In this document: positions 47,109 to 52,203 of the stretch, one piece after another
Position numbering within the stretch: the first letter of the stretch is position 1
Layout: each line of letters starts with the position of its first letter
Assembly (NCBI RefSeq): GCF_020166515.1
Contig: NZ_JAINZT010000001.1
Coordinates: 1-64,000, forward strand
Direction: 5' to 3'
Length of the DNA: 64,000 nt
Origin: Robertkochia flava
GTDB taxonomy: Bacteria > Bacteroidota > Bacteroidia > Flavobacteriales > Flavobacteriaceae
Translations under genes and position numbers: made by a program
The notes under the pieces: generated by a model
Seen by the model: the letters and a program-made list of their open reading frames with translations, nothing else
What the model was told of the DNA's origin: nothing
The model's database searches: none

Positions 47109-47126
47109 CCGTGCTTCGGGATTAAT
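47098..47126 (-). terminator. Hairpin at the end of dnaE2
   Basis: AATTAATCCCG and CGGGATTAATT form a perfect 11-bp inverted repeat with a 5-base loop at the dnaE2 stop codon. There is no long T-run, so it may be a weak terminator or an mRNA 3' end hairpin. Confidence 0.55.
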
Positions 47127-50086
47127 TATTTATACCTCGGATCCTCCACATACTCTTCCTTGCGCATCTTGATGAGTTCGATGCTCAGGTAGCCGAACTC
47201 ACTCACCACCTTGCCATAGAGGCGATAGATCCCCTTCCCCCGGAAAAAGTATTTGGCGGCCACCTGCGGAAAGAGGGTACAGTCGAATACCTCGCCGGCC
47301 TGGTCGATAAAGGTGGCGAAGTTCATCTCTTTCCCGTGCTGGGTTTTAGTGCGCTTTACGGTAACCAGGTAGCCGTAGATATCGATGTTGCAATTCAGGA
47401 AGCGCTCCATATCCTTCGCCCCATGATCATTTAACGGGGCTTCCCGGAGCAACTCAAACGGACTGCAAAGGCAGAATCCCAGCAGTTCGATCTGGTCAAA
47501 GGCCGCTTCCAGGTCGGTGGTTTCCAGCACGGGAATGTCAAAGTTGCGATGCGGTAACCGGAACAGACGCTGCTGCAGTTCCGGTTTCTTATGCACCCCC
47601 AGCTTAAAGTGGGCATGCCATAGGAGTTCGTACTTATCGACCCCGGTAAACCTGAAGGCATTGATCCTGATCAGGATCGAGAGTTGATCGATCCCGATGC
47701 GTACCCGGTCTACAAAATCGTCGAGCGACTTAAAGATCCCTTCGCGCTCTCTTTCCTTTAAGATCTGGAGGGCGGTCCGTTCTTCCAGGTCCTGCAGGGT
47801 TAGCAGCCCCAGGTAAACCACCTTTCCTCTAATGATGTGCTGCGCCCCACTACTGTTCACACAGGGAGGCCGGATCTCCCCGCCCAGCATCCGGGTTTCG
47901 TGCACATAGGTCTCGGTACGATAGAATCCGCCGCCGTTATTGAGTACGGCCACCATATACTCCAGTGGGAAATAGGCCCGCAGAAAAAGACTCTGGTAGC
48001 TTTCCACTGCATAGGAAGCCGAATGCCCCTTGGCAAAGGCATACCCGGCGAAGCTGGCCACCTGGTGCCATACCTCCTGTACCAGCTTTTCGTCGTACCC
48101 CTTTTCCCGGCAGTTGCTCACAAACTTATCTTCCACCCTTTTAAATTCTTCCCGGGAGCGGTACTTCCCGCTCATCCCCCGCCTCAGCACATCGGCCTCC
48201 CCCAGGGTAAGCCCGGCAAAATGGTGAGCCACCTTGATCACGTCTTCCTGGTATACCATAACCCCGTAGGTATCGGGCATGATGGCCTGCATTACGGGAT
48301 GCGCTTCCTTGCGTCTCTCCGGATCGCGGTGCCGAAGGATGTACTCCCGCATCATTCCGCTTTTAGAGACTCCGGGCCGGATAATGGAACTGGCCGCTAC
48401 CAGGCTCAGGTAATTATCGACCTCCAGCTTTCGAAGCAGCATGCGCATGGCCGGTGACTCTACATAGAAACACCCCATACACTGGGCCCGGCGTACCATG
48501 GCATTGATCCTTGCATCCTGCTTCAGTTTCCGGATATCGTGAATATCAAAGCTGGCTGCCTCCGGCTGATTCTCCCGGACAATAGCGATAGCCTCCTTGA
48601 TCTTGGCCAGTCCGCGCTGCCCGAGGATATCGAACTTGTACAAGCCCACATCCTCGGCAATATGCATGTCGAACTGCACGGTTGGAAACCCCTTGGGCGG
48701 CATATTGGTGGCCGAAAAGCAGTGCAGGGGCCGCTCACTGATCAGGATCCCGCTGGAATGAATGCTCACGTAATTAGGCATCCCATGGATAAGCTCCCCG
48801 TACTTCATGACCAGCCGGGCTGTCTCATCGAGTTCCTTCATCACCAGCCGCTCTTCACACAGCCGGTCGATCTCTTCCTTGGGCAGTCCGAACACCTTCC
48901 CGAGTTCCCTCACCACCCCCCGGTACTGAAAGGTTACATAGGCGCCCAGCAGGGCCACATGAGGGAAACGCTCAAAAATGTAGCGGGTAACATCCTGGCG
49001 GTCGCGCCAGGAAAAGTCGATATCGAAGTCGGGCGGACTCGTACGGTAGAGGTTAATAAAACGCTCGAAATAGAGGTCGAGCTCCATAGGATCCACATCG
49101 GTAATGCCCAGCAGGTAAGCCACAACACTGTTGGCACCGCTACCCCTTCCCACATGAAAATATCCCTGCCCCTTTGCATATCCTACAATATCCCAGTTGA
49201 TCAGGAAATAAGAGACGAAGTTCATCTGCCGGATCACGGTAAGCTCCTTATCGATGCGTTCCCTGATCTCCGGCCCCGCCTCCGGATAGCGGTAGGGCAG
49301 ACCTTTTTCACAAAGCTCCTGCAGCAACTCCCAGTCCTTAGCTTCATCTCCCGTATAAGTGCGCTGGTTTTGCATGGGTTTGGCATCGGAAAAATCAAAT
49401 ACAATACTGCATTGCTCCATCAGATCCCGGGTATTCTTCAGGATAAAACCGAATTCCCTGAAGGCTGCTGCCAGATTGGCCATAGGGTACATCCGTTCGT
49501 CTTCTGACCCTTCCTCATCTTTTGGTAGCTTGCTTAAAAGGATGTTGTTATCGATGGCCCGTAACAGGCGGTGGGCATTGAAGTCCCGCTTGTTCCTGAA
49601 GGTCACCGGTTGCTGTACCACCAGGCGGTCGCGGTAGTTTTTGATATAGCAGGAAAAAGGGAGCTTTCGCAGGTCGGCCACCGAAACCCCGATAAATTCC
49701 CGGTCGCTGAAGCCGGTCATCTCTTCCTCCAGCACCTTCTCAAAAGGATAGACCACAAAGGCATTGTGAAATTCCGGAGCTCTCTTTTCAAAAGGTTTTC
49801 CGTCATAGAGATGTTCCGACAGAAAGTCGTTAAGCTCCCGGTAGCCCTCATTATTGGCTGCCAGGGCAACGAATTCCTGGGTCACCCCGTTGCGGAAATC
49901 GACCCCCAGCAAGGGGCGCACCCCATACTCCGGGGCCTTGCGCACAAAGTTCAGACAGGCCGAGGTATTATTGATATCGGTTAAGGCAATACACCCCGCC
50001 TCCATCTCCCGGGCTAGGGCCAGCAGGTCGGTCTCGGAAAAGGTTCCGAAACGAAGGCTGTAATATGTGTGGCAGTTGAGGTACAT
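47126..50086 (-). CDS. dnaE2: Error-prone DNA polymerase III alpha subunit (DnaE2-type)
   Basis: A C-family polymerase of 986 aa, shorter than replicative DnaE (about 1450 aa in this group). The N-terminal PHP domain (1-200) is degenerate: it begins LNCHTYYSLRFGTF, where replicative forms have HxH metal ligands. The catalytic palm has YFHVGRGSGANSVVAYLLG and PPDFDIDFSWRDR with the catalytic Asp pair. A tandem HhH region and a C-terminal OB domain (about 890-970) follow. Together with the Y-family gene upstream it forms the usual mutagenic translesion pair. The 866-bp gap between the two genes is occupied by the DUF559 unit. Confidence 0.88.
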   Translation of the reverse strand: MYLNCHTYYSLRFGTFSETDLLALAREMEAGCIALTDINNTSACLNFVRKAPEYGVRPLLGVDFRNGVTQEFVALAANNEGYRELNDFLSEHLYDGKPFEKRAPEFHNAFVVYPFEKVLEEEMTGFSDREFIGVSVADLRKLPFSCYIKNYRDRLVVQQPVTFRNKRDFNAHRLLRAIDNNILLSKLPKDEEGSEDERMYPMANLAAAFREFGFILKNTRDLMEQCSIVFDFSDAKPMQNQRTYTGDEAKDWELLQELCEKGLPYRYPEAGPEIRERIDKELTVIRQMNFVSYFLINWDIVGYAKGQGYFHVGRGSGANSVVAYLLGITDVDPMELDLYFERFINLYRTSPPDFDIDFSWRDRQDVTRYIFERFPHVALLGAYVTFQYRGVVRELGKVFGLPKEEIDRLCEERLVMKELDETARLVMKYGELIHGMPNYVSIHSSGILISERPLHCFSATNMPPKGFPTVQFDMHIAEDVGLYKFDILGQRGLAKIKEAIAIVRENQPEAASFDIHDIRKLKQDARINAMVRRAQCMGCFYVESPAMRMLLRKLEVDNYLSLVAASSIIRPGVSKSGMMREYILRHRDPERRKEAHPVMQAIMPDTYGVMVYQEDVIKVAHHFAGLTLGEADVLRRGMSGKYRSREEFKRVEDKFVSNCREKGYDEKLVQEVWHQVASFAGYAFAKGHSASYAVESYQSLFLRAYFPLEYMVAVLNNGGGFYRTETYVHETRMLGGEIRPPCVNSSGAQHIIRGKVVYLGLLTLQDLEERTALQILKEREREGIFKSLDDFVDRVRIGIDQLSILIRINAFRFTGVDKYELLWHAHFKLGVHKKPELQQRLFRLPHRNFDIPVLETTDLEAAFDQIELLGFCLCSPFELLREAPLNDHGAKDMERFLNCNIDIYGYLVTVKRTKTQHGKEMNFATFIDQAGEVFDCTLFPQVAAKYFFRGKGIYRLYGKVVSEFGYLSIELIKMRKEEYVEDPRYK

Positions 50087-50136: not shown

Positions 50137-50294
50137 GGGCTCCCCGCCCTGGTCAGGGCGGGGTGGATCAGGACCATGTCCTGAGACGGAGTGGGTTGTA
50201 TCAAAAGCCTACTCAGGTCCACCCCTTCCGTCATCGCTTCCCGATGCCACCTTCCCCTGACCAGGGGAAGGAGCCTATTATTTATCAAACCTTC
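50137..50294. repeat. Palindrome-rich repeat, copy A (downstream flank of DUF559)
   Basis: The 158-bp unit starts GGGCTCCCCGCCCT and ends ATCAAACCTTC, exactly at the DUF559 stop codon. It contains three strong hairpins: CCCCGCCCT/AGGGCGGGG, TCAGGAC/GTCCTGA (50168-50184), and CCTTCCCCTG/CAGGGGAAGG. It is a direct copy of 50702-50858, with the middle hairpin changed in sequence but not in pairing. Confidence 0.9.
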
Positions 50295-50678
50295 TTATTT
50301 ACTTCTATTAAATTTTTCTTTTATCTCTTCTAAAACCCATCTCGGATAATCGAACACAAACTTATTCTCGTACCGAAGAACCTCTATCCCAAGATTTTCA
50401 AAATAAGCCGCTCTTTTCTCATCATAGCTTGCCACATCATCATCTCCAAAATGAATTTGTCCGTCCAATTCAATAACCAAACGCTCTGATGGACAATAGA
50501 AATCCACCACATATCTACCTATGCCATGCTGTCTTCGAAACTTTCTCCCTTCCAGTTTTCTGTTTTTCAGAAATCCCCATAAATAAGTCTCAGCAGGAGT
50601 CATCCGGCTTCTTAAAAACTTCCTGAAATCCCTGGATCTATCCCGATTATGGACCCTTCTGCTCTTCATTCCTGTCAT
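50295..50678 (-). CDS. DUF559 endonuclease-domain protein
   Basis: The 127-aa protein has the PD-(D/E)xK-like, Vsr-related layout of DUF559: TPAETYLWGFLKNRKLEGRKFRRQHGIGRYVVDFYCPSERLVIELDGQIH, with VVDFYC carrying the Asp and VIELDG the ExD pair, then YDEKRAAYFENLGIEVLRYEN. It is therefore a predicted nuclease. The start may be 50678 or the ATG at 50669. Its stop codon touches repeat copy A and its start lies 24 bp after copy B, so the gene fills the space between the repeats almost completely. No consensus promoter is visible; expression may come from dinB read-through. Confidence 0.85.
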   Translation of the reverse strand: MTGMKSRRVHNRDRSRDFRKFLRSRMTPAETYLWGFLKNRKLEGRKFRRQHGIGRYVVDFYCPSERLVIELDGQIHFGDDDVASYDEKRAAYFENLGIEVLRYENKFVFDYPRWVLEEIKEKFNRSK

Positions 50679-50701
50679 TTCATTGATTTTCTAATTATAG
50701 A

Positions 50702-50858
50702 GGGCTCCCCGCCCTGATCAGGGCGGGGTGGATCGAGGTAAAGCCTCGAGACGGGGTGGGTTGAAACAATAATATTCATATCAACCCCTTCCGTCATCGC
50801 TTCCCGATGCCACCTTCCCCTGACCAGGGGAAGGAGCCTCATTATTTATCAAACCTTC
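50702..50858. repeat. Palindrome-rich repeat, copy B (upstream flank of DUF559)
   Basis: A 157-bp direct copy of 50137-50294. The outer hairpins are identical or nearly so; the middle hairpin reads TCGAGG/CCTCGA (50733-50749) instead of TCAGGAC/GTCCTGA, and a further GGGTTGA/TCAACCC stem is present at about 50757-50785. The copy ends at ATCAAACCTTC, where a period-7 array begins. Confidence 0.9.
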
Positions 50859-50950
50859 ATTCATCATTCACAATTCATAATTCCCATTCTCTACCCACTC
50901 CCGACTCCTGTCTACCTGGCGGTATGGCAGGCAGGCCCGACTCACCACTC
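50859..50950 (-). repeat. Period-7 array between copy B and dinB, interrupted by a palindrome
   Basis: Eight units (50859-50914) grade from AT-rich to C-rich: ATTCATC, ATTCACA, ATTCATA, ATTCCCA, TTCTCTA, CCCACTC, CCGACTC and CTGTCTA. A 22-bp block with CCTGGCGGTATGGCAGG (50915-50936) interrupts, then CCGACTC and ACCACTC (50937-50950) lead directly into the dinB stop codon. Confidence 0.7.
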
Positions 50951-50951
50951 C

Positions 50952-52166
50952 CTATTGTTTCCTATGTGCCAGCACCGGTGGCGGCTGCCCGTTAAAGGGA
51001 TTGTACATCCGTCCGATGGTTTTGGCATCCATAGCTGAGGCGCGGAGCACGCTGCGTTCCCCGAAACGTTCCCGGATTTTGTCCATCGCGTCATAGAGGC
51101 TGAGGCGCTCCTGGGTATCGTCAAAAAGATCGATCTGATAATTCCCTCCCACCAGGTGACTGAAGCGCACCCCGATAAGGCGCACCAGCAACCGCCTGTT
51201 GTACAGCTTCTCAAAGAGGTCAAGGATGGAGGGAATCAGCACATGGTCGGCACTGGTATAGGGAATACGCAATTGCCTGGAATAGGTATTGAAATCGGAG
51301 TAGCGGATCTTCACTGCCACGCAGGCCGTTAGCTTATCCCCGCGGCGAAGCTGAAAGGCCAGGTTCTCGGTCATGGCCATCAGGATACCCCGGAGGCGAA
51401 CCACATCTATGGTATCCCGGTCGAAGGTGCGCTCGGTGGAAATGGATTTCCGCTCATTAAAAGGAATTACCGGGGAGGTGTCTATACCATTGGCCCGGTC
51501 CCAGATCGTGACGCCGTTCATCCCCAGTACCGAATGCATCATATCCCTCGGCATCTCCTGTATGGTCTTCACCTGCTTAAGTCCCAGGTTGCGCAGGGTC
51601 TGGTAGGTTTTATCGCCCACCATGGGGATCTTCCTGATGGACAGCGGGGCTAGGAAAGGTTTTTCAAATCCGTAGTCGATCTTGAGCTGGTTATTGGGCT
51701 TGGCCTCATTGGTAGCCACCTTGGAGACCACCTTGTTTACGGAGAGCCCGAAGGAAATGGGCAGCCCGGTTTCCTTAATGATGGAATGCCGGAGCTCGGA
51801 GGCGTATTTATAGCACCCAAAGAAACGGTCCATTCCCGACAGGTCGGCGTAGAACTCATCGATGCTCGACTTCTCAAAAAGGGGCACCTGCTCTTTGATG
51901 ATCTCGGTCACGTTATCGGAATACTTGCTGTACACCCCGGCATTGCCACGGATCACCACCGCTTCCGGGCACAGCTGTTTGGCCATTTTCATGGGCATGC
52001 CCGAATGCACCCCAAAGGCACGGGTCTCGTACGAACAGGCCGCCACCACCCCGCGATCGCTGGTACCGCCCACCAGCAGCGGACGCTTTTTAAGCCTGCT
52101 GTCTATAAGTCGTTCGACCGACACATAAAACGTATCGAGGTCGAGATGAAGAATGGTTCGGTCCAT
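50952..52166 (-). CDS. dinB: Y-family DNA polymerase (DinB/Pol IV type)
   Basis: A translesion polymerase of 404 aa from the chosen start. Palm motifs are HLDLDTFYVSVE (first Asp) and SSIDEFYADLSG (catalytic Asp-Glu). The fingers have VVAACSYETRAFGVHSGMP, and the thumb and little-finger domains have RKIPMVGDKTYQTLRNLG and ISTERTFD. The ATG at 52187 lies inside a TAATTTTG promoter element, so the ATG at 52166 (MDRTILHLDL) is used, leaving a short leader. With dnaE2 downstream it forms a mutagenic repair pair. Confidence 0.92.
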   Translation of the reverse strand: MDRTILHLDLDTFYVSVERLIDSRLKKRPLLVGGTSDRGVVAACSYETRAFGVHSGMPMKMAKQLCPEAVVIRGNAGVYSKYSDNVTEIIKEQVPLFEKSSIDEFYADLSGMDRFFGCYKYASELRHSIIKETGLPISFGLSVNKVVSKVATNEAKPNNQLKIDYGFEKPFLAPLSIRKIPMVGDKTYQTLRNLGLKQVKTIQEMPRDMMHSVLGMNGVTIWDRANGIDTSPVIPFNERKSISTERTFDRDTIDVVRLRGILMAMTENLAFQLRRGDKLTACVAVKIRYSDFNTYSRQLRIPYTSADHVLIPSILDLFEKLYNRRLLVRLIGVRFSHLVGGNYQIDLFDDTQERLSLYDAMDKIRERFGERSVLRASAMDAKTIGRMYNPFNGQPPPVLAHRKQ

Positions 52167-52171
52167 TTTGA

Positions 52172-52203
52172 TTGGAATTTTTCCCAAAATTAGGAATTAT
52201 TCC
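52172..52203 (-). promoter_or_regulatory. dinB promoter with two overlapping palindromes
   Basis: The -7 element TAATTTTG (minus, 52185-52192) lies between the near palindrome TTGGAATTTTTCCCAA (52172-52187) and the perfect palindrome GGAATTATTCC (52193-52203). Both share GGAAT/ATTCC half-sites, as expected for a repressor site. No canonical LexA box is seen. Confidence 0.5.

Follow-up and report, generated by a model that had tools for sequence, protein, structure and literature searches.

DUF559 nuclease genes and triplex-type repeats as a candidate transposase-free mobile element of bacteria

We analyzed a gene for a DUF559 nuclease that lies between two structured repeats in a 64,000-nucleotide stretch of the genome of the flavobacterium Robertkochia flava (contig NZ_JAINZT010000001.1, positions 1 to 64,000; the window, hereafter), and found that genes of this family are accompanied, in many bacterial groups, by hairpins built like the BoxC class of intrastrand-triplex repeats. 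The association between DUF559 and such repeats is close to certain. The structure of the repeats is conserved, DUF559 domains have been inserted into conserved genes, and at the window site the package of gene and repeats is present in some congeneric genomes and absent from others. The package is very likely mobile, which supports the suggestion of an initial annotation of this DNA that the nuclease moves with its own hairpin repeats. We think it probable that DUF559 (including YcjD of Escherichia coli and VsrA of Caulobacter) and the repeats constitute one selfish unit, with DUF559 as the cognate nuclease of BoxC-type repeats, and we lean towards DUF559 as the driver of the package.

The window gene and its repeats

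The window protein is a member of the PF04480 family (2e-29, 102 bits against a curated cut-off of 20.6, in a Pfam search), and its gene is framed, as the initial annotation had it, by two direct repeats, copies A and B, which are 158 bp long and 86% identical. Copy A does abut the stop codon of the nuclease gene; copy B, said to end 24 bp before the start, is indeed close to it, the distance being 23 bp in the orientation of the gene. Between the repeats, the list of open reading frames offers no second gene of convincing length, and no transposase was seen by reading.

Three features had been overlooked earlier, namely that each 158-bp copy is itself an inverted pair of one unit of ~61 nucleotides, that the end of this unit is related to its first hairpin, and that the repeat has further copies in the genome. 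The order within the unit is GGCTCC, hairpin 1 (e.g., CCTTCCCC...GGGGAAGG) and TGG, then hairpin 2, whose sequence varies, and after it GACGG and a tail rich in G (GGAAGGGGTTG or GGGGTGGGTTG). Hairpin 1 pairs a C/T arm with a G/A arm, and the tail mirrors the purine arm by the base rule of purine-motif triplexes: thus, GGGGAAGG is mirrored by GGAAGGGG, and GGGCGGGG by GGGGTGGG with a T opposite C. This combination of a pyrimidine/purine hairpin and a mirror third strand is present in units B(+), A(-) and B(-), the tail of the last (GGAAGGGG on the minus strand) being an exact mirror of GGGGAAGG, and in A(+) with one mismatch. Judged by its letters, the unit is built like a purine-motif intrastrand triplex whose linker contains hairpin 2, and the middle hairpin of the initial annotation is better read as a structured linker leading from strand two to strand three of a possible triplex.

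The strong hairpins noted before are real by the measure of folding, since both unit pairs, as single-stranded DNA, fold much better than dinucleotide shuffles (z -5.4 and -7.3; 0/200 shuffles each). Likewise, the claim that the middle hairpin varies in sequence yet stays paired is borne out by additional copies: over 10 units, 9 of them distinct, pairing is kept in 90% of cells, and five of the seven hairpin 2 pairs are altered on both sides. The covariation score of the whole structure is 0.229, against 0.137 +/- 0.020 for shuffles, of which 0/500 scored as high; the underlying alignment has 10 rows, one of them visibly misaligned, from the window's genome (G000) and the congeneric G118 and G119. 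In these rows, GACGG follows hairpin 2 in 7/10 and TGG precedes it in 6/10, with stems of ~7 bp; a GTAG tag is absent from the unit consensus, one of the 10 rows reading GTAG between the hairpins.

Across 40 sequences of the nuclease, residues E30, Q50, D59, E70, D72, H76 and D86 are invariant and are its putative catalytic residues. An AlphaFold model of the window protein (predicted local distance difference test score, 86) matches the folds of 3HRL (Z 16.5 over 93 residues), 3R3P (the catalytic domain of I-Bth0305I; 11.9) and 1CW0 (Vsr; 9.8). The first of these is the putative endonuclease NGO0050 of Neisseria gonorrhoeae, whose sequence equals our N. gonorrhoeae row from MSEAEAK on; the gene of this row (L142) has, by eye, hairpins on both of its sides. 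The model also gives moderate fold matches to chains of the Toxoplasma and Tetrahymena mitoribosomes, which perhaps carry a related domain.

Table 1. Coordinates of the nuclease gene, the repeat units and the adjacent genes in the window.
Feature	Position	Strand	Description
DUF559 (PD-(D/E)XK, EDxHD/Vsr-like) nuclease gene	50295..50678	-	127 amino acids; open reading frame and PF04480 match
Repeat copy A	50137..50294	+	Two triplex-type units in inverted orientation; AT-rich end of 18 bp, also in copy B
Unit A(+)	50138..50198	+	Hairpin 1, 50142-50163; hairpin 2, 50168-50184
Unit A(+) tail, third-strand-like	50188-50195		GGAGTGGG; mirror rule broken at one position
Unit A(-)	50217..50275	-	Third-strand-like tail, 50222-50229; hairpin 1, 50250-50271
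Repeat copy B	50702..50858	+	Two triplex-type units in inverted orientation; same AT-rich end as in copy A
Unit B(+)	50703..50763	+	Hairpin 1, 50707-50728; hairpin 2; tail GGGGTGGG mirroring GGGCGGGG, T opposite C
Unit B(-)	50780..50838	-	Hairpin 1, 50813-50834; third-strand-like tail, 50785-50792
Left neighbor, DNA polymerase III alpha-type gene	47126..50086	-	One side of the insertion site; named from sequence reading alone
Right neighbor, Y-family DNA polymerase gene	50952..52187	-	Other side of the insertion site; named from sequence reading alone

A separate small palindrome of the CTACCTGGCGGTATGGCAGGCAGG type, seen by eye near several copies of the unit, stands at ~50910-50940 of the window, and comparable stretches occur in L038 and in L326.

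Mirror-tailed hairpins beside DUF559 genes

PF04480 matches at E<=1e-10 occur at 106 places in 49 of 118 Bacteroidota genomes; 93 of these places were read (the rest are mostly the weakest), giving 77 standalone genes, 74 of them with enough flank for a test of repeats shared between the two sides. With 350-bp flanks and a score of >=40, such a repeat is found at 46/74 genes, as compared to 6/587 mispaired DUF559 flanks. In controls from the same draw, it is found at 15/26 loci of Y1_Tnp, the transposase of the RAYT type (tyrosine transposases associated with repetitive extragenic palindromes, REPs), which served as the positive control, and at 1/24 ParE loci; mispaired ParE flanks reach this score in 8/187 cases, which is above the ParE loci's own value. 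Each control set comprised the 30 best-scoring loci, from which 4 (Y1) and 6 (ParE) with contig ends were left out. Flanks were taken from the matched domain for the controls and for the scan with an E. coli-type protein described below; for Bacteroidota DUF559 genes they start at the domain in the tests of shared repeats and of hairpin density, and at the gene ends in those of mirror tails and direct repeats. Of the 77 Bacteroidota genes, 14 lie between direct repeats with lengths of 112 to 810 bp (score >=150). Hairpins reach a density of 3.9/kb in the 100 bp closest to the Bacteroidota genes and drop to ~0.2/kb at distances above 600 bp.

Comparable associations are seen in other groups. 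A scan of genome contigs with an E. coli-type protein yielded 139 loci, the best 80 of which (many from metagenome-assembled genomes, with names taken from record titles) comprise 55 non-enteric loci, one of them from Flavobacterium, and 25 enteric ones; 54 and 22 of these, respectively, entered the flank test. The non-enteric loci share a flank repeat in 37/54 cases at a score of >=40 and in 28/54 at >=60, against 43/533 and 5/533 mispaired flanks, this background being higher because different groups have similar canonical repeats. Around these genes there are 6.6 hairpins/kb in the nearest 100 bp, ~0.4/kb between 350 and 1000 bp, and 0.68/kb between 1000 and 1600 bp. The common unit outside the Bacteroidota is a CCCTCTCCC...GGGAGAGGG hairpin followed by TTGGG(G)TGAGGG, which we take to be BoxC-like; in ten genomes, each with between 1 and 7 DUF559 places, a model of this unit is matched 13 to 180 times (E<=0.1). 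Further DUF559 genes were found by tblastn on 42 records of a plasmid collection (some of them chromosomes), from hosts that include alpha-, beta- and gammaproteobacteria, Deinococcus and cyanobacteria; in the 16 of the 42 records that were read by eye, palindromes with C/G runs lie on both sides of the gene in 11 and on one side in five. A Novosphingobium locus (L148) has the same two-hairpin layout as the window, with a CGTC tag, and a Sphingomonas copy of the gene sits between sufB and sufC. Separately, one DUF559 gene (L134) is flanked by TGTC-tagged repeats (TTGTCATTTCGAG...CGAGAAATCTA) that resemble the published CGTC class.

The relation of tail to hairpin seen in the window recurs at these loci. 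At a distance of up to 350 bp, pyrimidine-rich hairpins followed by a full mirror tail accompany 55/77 DUF559 genes in Bacteroidota, 45/55 in the non-enteric set and 18/25 in enterics (118/157 in all), and none of the 26 Y1 and 24 ParE loci; as pyrimidine-rich hairpins number only 6 in the Y1 set and are absent from the ParE set, these controls test loci, not hairpins. Counted per hairpin, the full mirror tail is present in 107/142 Bacteroidota, 91/114 non-enteric and 27/32 enteric cases (75-84%), as against 0.3-2% for shuffled tails. Because the arm of a neighboring unit can inflate such counts, we also ended the tail at the next hairpin, and under this strict rule 45/75 Bacteroidota, 47/55 non-enteric and 16/25 enteric loci (108/155 in all) retain a mirror-tailed hairpin. 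When every hairpin is read on both strands, which makes 540 single-strand readings, a mirror of the hairpin's own arm is present in 215 and a non-mirror copy of that arm in 107 (symmetric arms count for both); a mirror of a foreign arm sharing no 8-mer is present in 612/10189 trials (6%). With 69 distinct arms across the 108 loci, the third strand follows its hairpin, i.e., tails covary with hairpins. Chance, or a background of generic GC-rich intergenic hairpins, is rejected by the ParE loci, the mispaired flanks and the shuffled tails.

We also compared paralogous nucleases within genomes (72 pairs from 21 genomes) for sharing of a flank repeat at a score of >=60. None of the 56 pairs with <50% identity share one, against 1/11 of those with 50-70% and 3/5 of those with >70% identity, the other two of which scored 59 and 40. 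The low sharing among divergent paralogues implies that nuclease lineages tend to own separate repeats, and a cognate pairing of nuclease and repeat is supported, if modestly. A single generic repeat per genome that traps all DUF559 genes is not supported, as most paralogues differ in their repeats.

Presence, absence and in-frame insertion of the package

In the 3.45-Mb genome of the window, DUF559 is matched three times at E<=1e-10 and once more weakly and in part, and the window repeat recurs there at 60 BLAST places (E<=10) or 38 covariance-model matches (E<=1). Across five congeneric genomes, the same model gives 38, 16, 97, 22 and 0 unit matches for 3, 2, 4, 1 and 0 DUF559 places: the genome without DUF559 has no unit match, and the one richest in DUF559 has the most. 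The concentration of repeats at DUF559 genes that the initial annotation led one to expect was found, in that at least 6 of the 10 places in these genomes have a model match within 200 bp, where chance at that density would give ~0.4% per gene (P ~1e-12); two of the six supplied seeds for the model, and without those at least 4/8 remain. At the window site itself, G119 has the nuclease and the repeats, G118 has repeats with no nuclease, and in G120 and G121 the site is empty, with 36 bp and 95 bp, respectively, between matching blocks of the polymerase genes; the left-neighbor gene is conserved at both empty sites. In G119, a second, stop-bearing DUF559 gene ~4 kb away also lies between units; the two elements surround one dnaE-type gene (L326, G119:C1:383000-390000). 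The third DUF559 gene of the window's genome (G000:C10:66034-66336; L033, L036) is accompanied, by eye, by another type of palindrome, TTTCCxCCCTTTAGGGxGGGGAAA.

It is conceivable, though we judge it unlikely, that DUF559 is passive cargo, the repeats being spread by a Y1 transposase, replication slippage or stalled-fork repair, with small genes surviving among them. The many repeats in genomes with a single DUF559 gene would fit such an origin, as would the tie of motifs of this type to genome instability (PMC4666352). It would leave unexplained why ParE loci, likewise small genes of the mobile type, have no mirror-tailed hairpin (0/24), why, within a genome, the repeats of divergent DUF559 paralogues mostly differ, unlike what trapping by one abundant repeat would give, and why the putative catalytic residues are invariant. 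Moreover, the window's genome has no match to the Y1 (RAYT-type) transposase family PF01797 at E<=1e-10, so a RAYT as the present driver of the window's repeats is not supported.

DUF559 domains also occur in frame within longer proteins, in 15 Bacteroidota cases plus one (L084) whose frame runs into Ns. The Pfam hosts of seven scanned fusions are leucyl-tRNA synthetase (LeuRS; at two different sites), MetH, RecG, HsdR, HsdM and an M23 peptidase; loci include L088, L089 and L358 (RecG), L054, L056, L077 and L074 (LeuRS), and L065 and L070 (MetH). In 10/15 fusions, a C-rich hairpin is read through in frame on at least one side. Several of these inserts in essential or conserved enzymes stand at the same site across genera and keep the putative active-site residues. 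In a sample of 30 RecG loci from 41 genomes of the family, of which 27 could be parsed (L345, L365 and L368 fall outside the junction pattern), the junction is uninterrupted in 22, has 6-12 extra in-frame residues in three and bears DUF559 inserts of ~145 amino acids in two (G084 and G127); a further insert, in G103, came from the Bacteroidota PF04480 search. The extra residues (in L343, L359 and L361) lie exactly at the position of the relatives' DUF559 insert and could possibly be scars of excision. As a separate observation, Y1 transposase domains are found in open frames of 1213-1288 amino acids (G046:C33:94827, G026:C21:83598 and G043:C1:142146), and RAYT-type genes may also insert in frame.

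The inverted flank repeats at 18/74 Bacteroidota and 33/54 non-enteric loci (score >=40) are what one would expect of a classical transposon with inverted hairpin ends, moved in trans by an unrecognized transposase and with DUF559 as an accessory. This we deem highly improbable: no convincing second gene is seen between the window repeats, the in-frame packages read hold the DUF559 domain only, and in many groups the gene for the transposase would need to lie far from the element.

In E. coli, the DUF559 gene is ycjD, located between sapF and fabI, and a 901-bp query around it is covered to >=80% in 3364 of 5426 genomes. YcjD has been assigned to the PD-(D/E)XK superfamily (PMC1189080), and ycjD has been described as standing in place of the eef operon (PMC12817139). 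Decayed BoxC-like units were seen by eye beside ycjD. Among four other E. coli strains that were read, three have efflux genes beside sapF and one has a truncated ycjD; ycjD with its decayed units thus appears as a presence/absence polymorphism against the efflux genes at this position (L406-L410). The Caulobacter DUF559 protein, VsrA, on which the SOS response of cells lacking ScmA depends, has been read as a Vsr-like mismatch repair enzyme (PMC12907096). This dependence, the Vsr fold and the retention of the putative active site in in-frame copies of several genera might be cited for DUF559 being a host repair enzyme (nicking mismatches in the manner of Vsr, as suggested for VsrA) or a resolvase of hairpin and triplex obstacles, whose location beside the repeats reflects their taming, not mobility. 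We hold this to be improbable, in that such an enzyme would not have to be encoded less than 100 bp from its substrate or inside LeuRS, MetH or RecG, and would not call for as many as seven copies in one genome.

Several observations weigh against a selfish unit driven by DUF559. The number of repeats need not track the gene, given that in Enterobacter hormaechei a single DUF559 gene goes with 180 matches of the unit, and that one congeneric genome has 22 matches with one DUF559 gene, yet another has 16 with two. Enteric loci are mostly one-sided, with a hairpin downstream in 17/22 and upstream in 2/22 and a flank repeat common to both sides in 1/22, and DUF559 is at a single locus in E. coli (ycjD), where it looks domesticated. 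Under the strict rule, 47/155 DUF559 loci have no mirror-tailed hairpin. The polarity of units is not uniform either: where the nearest unit could be oriented on both sides, the tails of non-enteric loci face the gene, which then lies within an inverted pair, in 21/26, point the opposite way in 2/26 and run in the same direction in 3/26, and the Bacteroidota loci oriented on both sides (4/77; three the same way and one with tails inward) are too few for inference, so that a single polarity was not found across oriented loci. The pairing of nuclease and repeat comes with a modest permutation result (53/2000 by label permutation; Spearman 0.30), and the repeats of the window gene and of a paralogue on C6, 49% identical to it, belong to the same family, with a score of 42, below the threshold. 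Where several genera have an insertion at the same site, it may be ancient and have been inherited vertically. Finally, neither a target-site duplication nor a border at the DNA level could be made out; at the window site, filled and empty flanks are too diverged to define borders.

On balance, we still favor DUF559 and its repeats as one selfish unit, which could work in the following way. The repeat would be of the BoxC type, a pyrimidine/purine hairpin with a purine-rich third strand and an extra hairpin in the linker, and the nuclease, with its Vsr/homing-endonuclease fold, would recognize this structured DNA or its target. It would then nick or cut the recognized DNA, and repair from a sister copy would spread the package; this chain of recognition, cleavage and repair-driven copying we infer for the predicted nuclease. 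The package would take the form unit(+)-gene-unit(-), or that of a gene between two complete unit pairs, as found in the window, with the gene-less unit(+)-linker-unit(-) pairs as its non-autonomous form, akin to miniature inverted-repeat transposable elements or REPINs (inverted REP pairs). The window layout might have come from recombination at an existing pair, which would itself be a gene-less derivative of unit(+)-gene-unit(-). In its widest form, to which we give an even chance, the proposal is of transposase-free mobile elements over many bacterial phyla, with one nuclease lineage per triplex-repeat lineage, which cut structured DNA to copy themselves and their gene-less derivatives, gave rise to the BoxC/PIT repeats and at least some of the CGTC-tagged REPs, and can be inserted in frame into essential genes.

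Relation to known systems

The closest counterparts of the unit are the BoxC/PIT/TM_ECO repeats, intrastrand-triplex repeats for whose G/C-rich motif a triplex has been reported (Holder 2015; PMC4666352). Both have a hairpin that pairs a pyrimidine arm with a purine arm, and after it a purine third strand in mirror order; the link to DUF559, the many arm sequences and the extra linker hairpin are features of the present system that do not figure in the consulted part of that paper, whose authors remark there that they have never found genetic-mobility activities around such motifs in E. coli.

The comparison with REPs and RAYT genes drawn in the initial annotation is apt as an analogy. Like REP/REPIN elements, the present repeats are short, structured, multi-copy inverted pairs that flank an enzyme gene, but the enzyme is a PD-(D/E)XK nuclease of Vsr-like fold (matching 3R3P and 1CW0) instead of a Y1 transposase of the HUH type, and the repeat has a triplex grammar instead of the GTAG tag of REPs. 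We have not filed the DUF559 system under REP/RAYT because it has neither a Y1 enzyme nor a GTAG tag. Hairpin 2 of the window also carries a CGTC tag, in head-to-head pairs, and the window family might belong with the CGTC-tagged REPs, which have this tag at one end of an 8-9 bp stem and a CCA tail; the tag fits the window family and not the canonical unit of other groups. The hosts of CGTC-tagged REPs include Bacteroidetes and alphaproteobacteria, and these REPs are said to lack a dedicated transposase (Di Nocera 2013; PMC3733652). The consulted parts of papers citing that survey carry nothing on DUF559 (PMC6006769, PMC12306157, PMC5896051), and the literature searched, with subscription journals and bioRxiv outside its range, showed no link of DUF559 with BoxC/PIT or CGTC-tagged REPs.

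In fold, the nuclease is like I-Bth0305I (3R3P) and E. coli Vsr (1CW0); unlike these, DUF559 is tied to structured repeats, and no intron or intein was seen. The palindromic elements of Rickettsia are inserted in frame into protein genes, and the elements described here differ from them in carrying a whole nuclease domain. RPE-4 and RPE-6 of that group are named alongside the CGTC-tagged REPs in PMC3733652.

DUF559 is a widespread nuclease of 'unknown function', and linking it with the BoxC/PIT and CGTC repeats makes all three testable together. If the proposal is true, DNA secondary structure would serve as the address label of a transposase-free mobile element, and the nuclease domains inside LeuRS, MetH and RecG would be inserted elements, not designed fusions. 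The system, new as a whole against the literature searched, is assembled from known parts: the triplex of BoxC/PIT, the CGTC-tagged REPs and the nuclease fold of DUF559.
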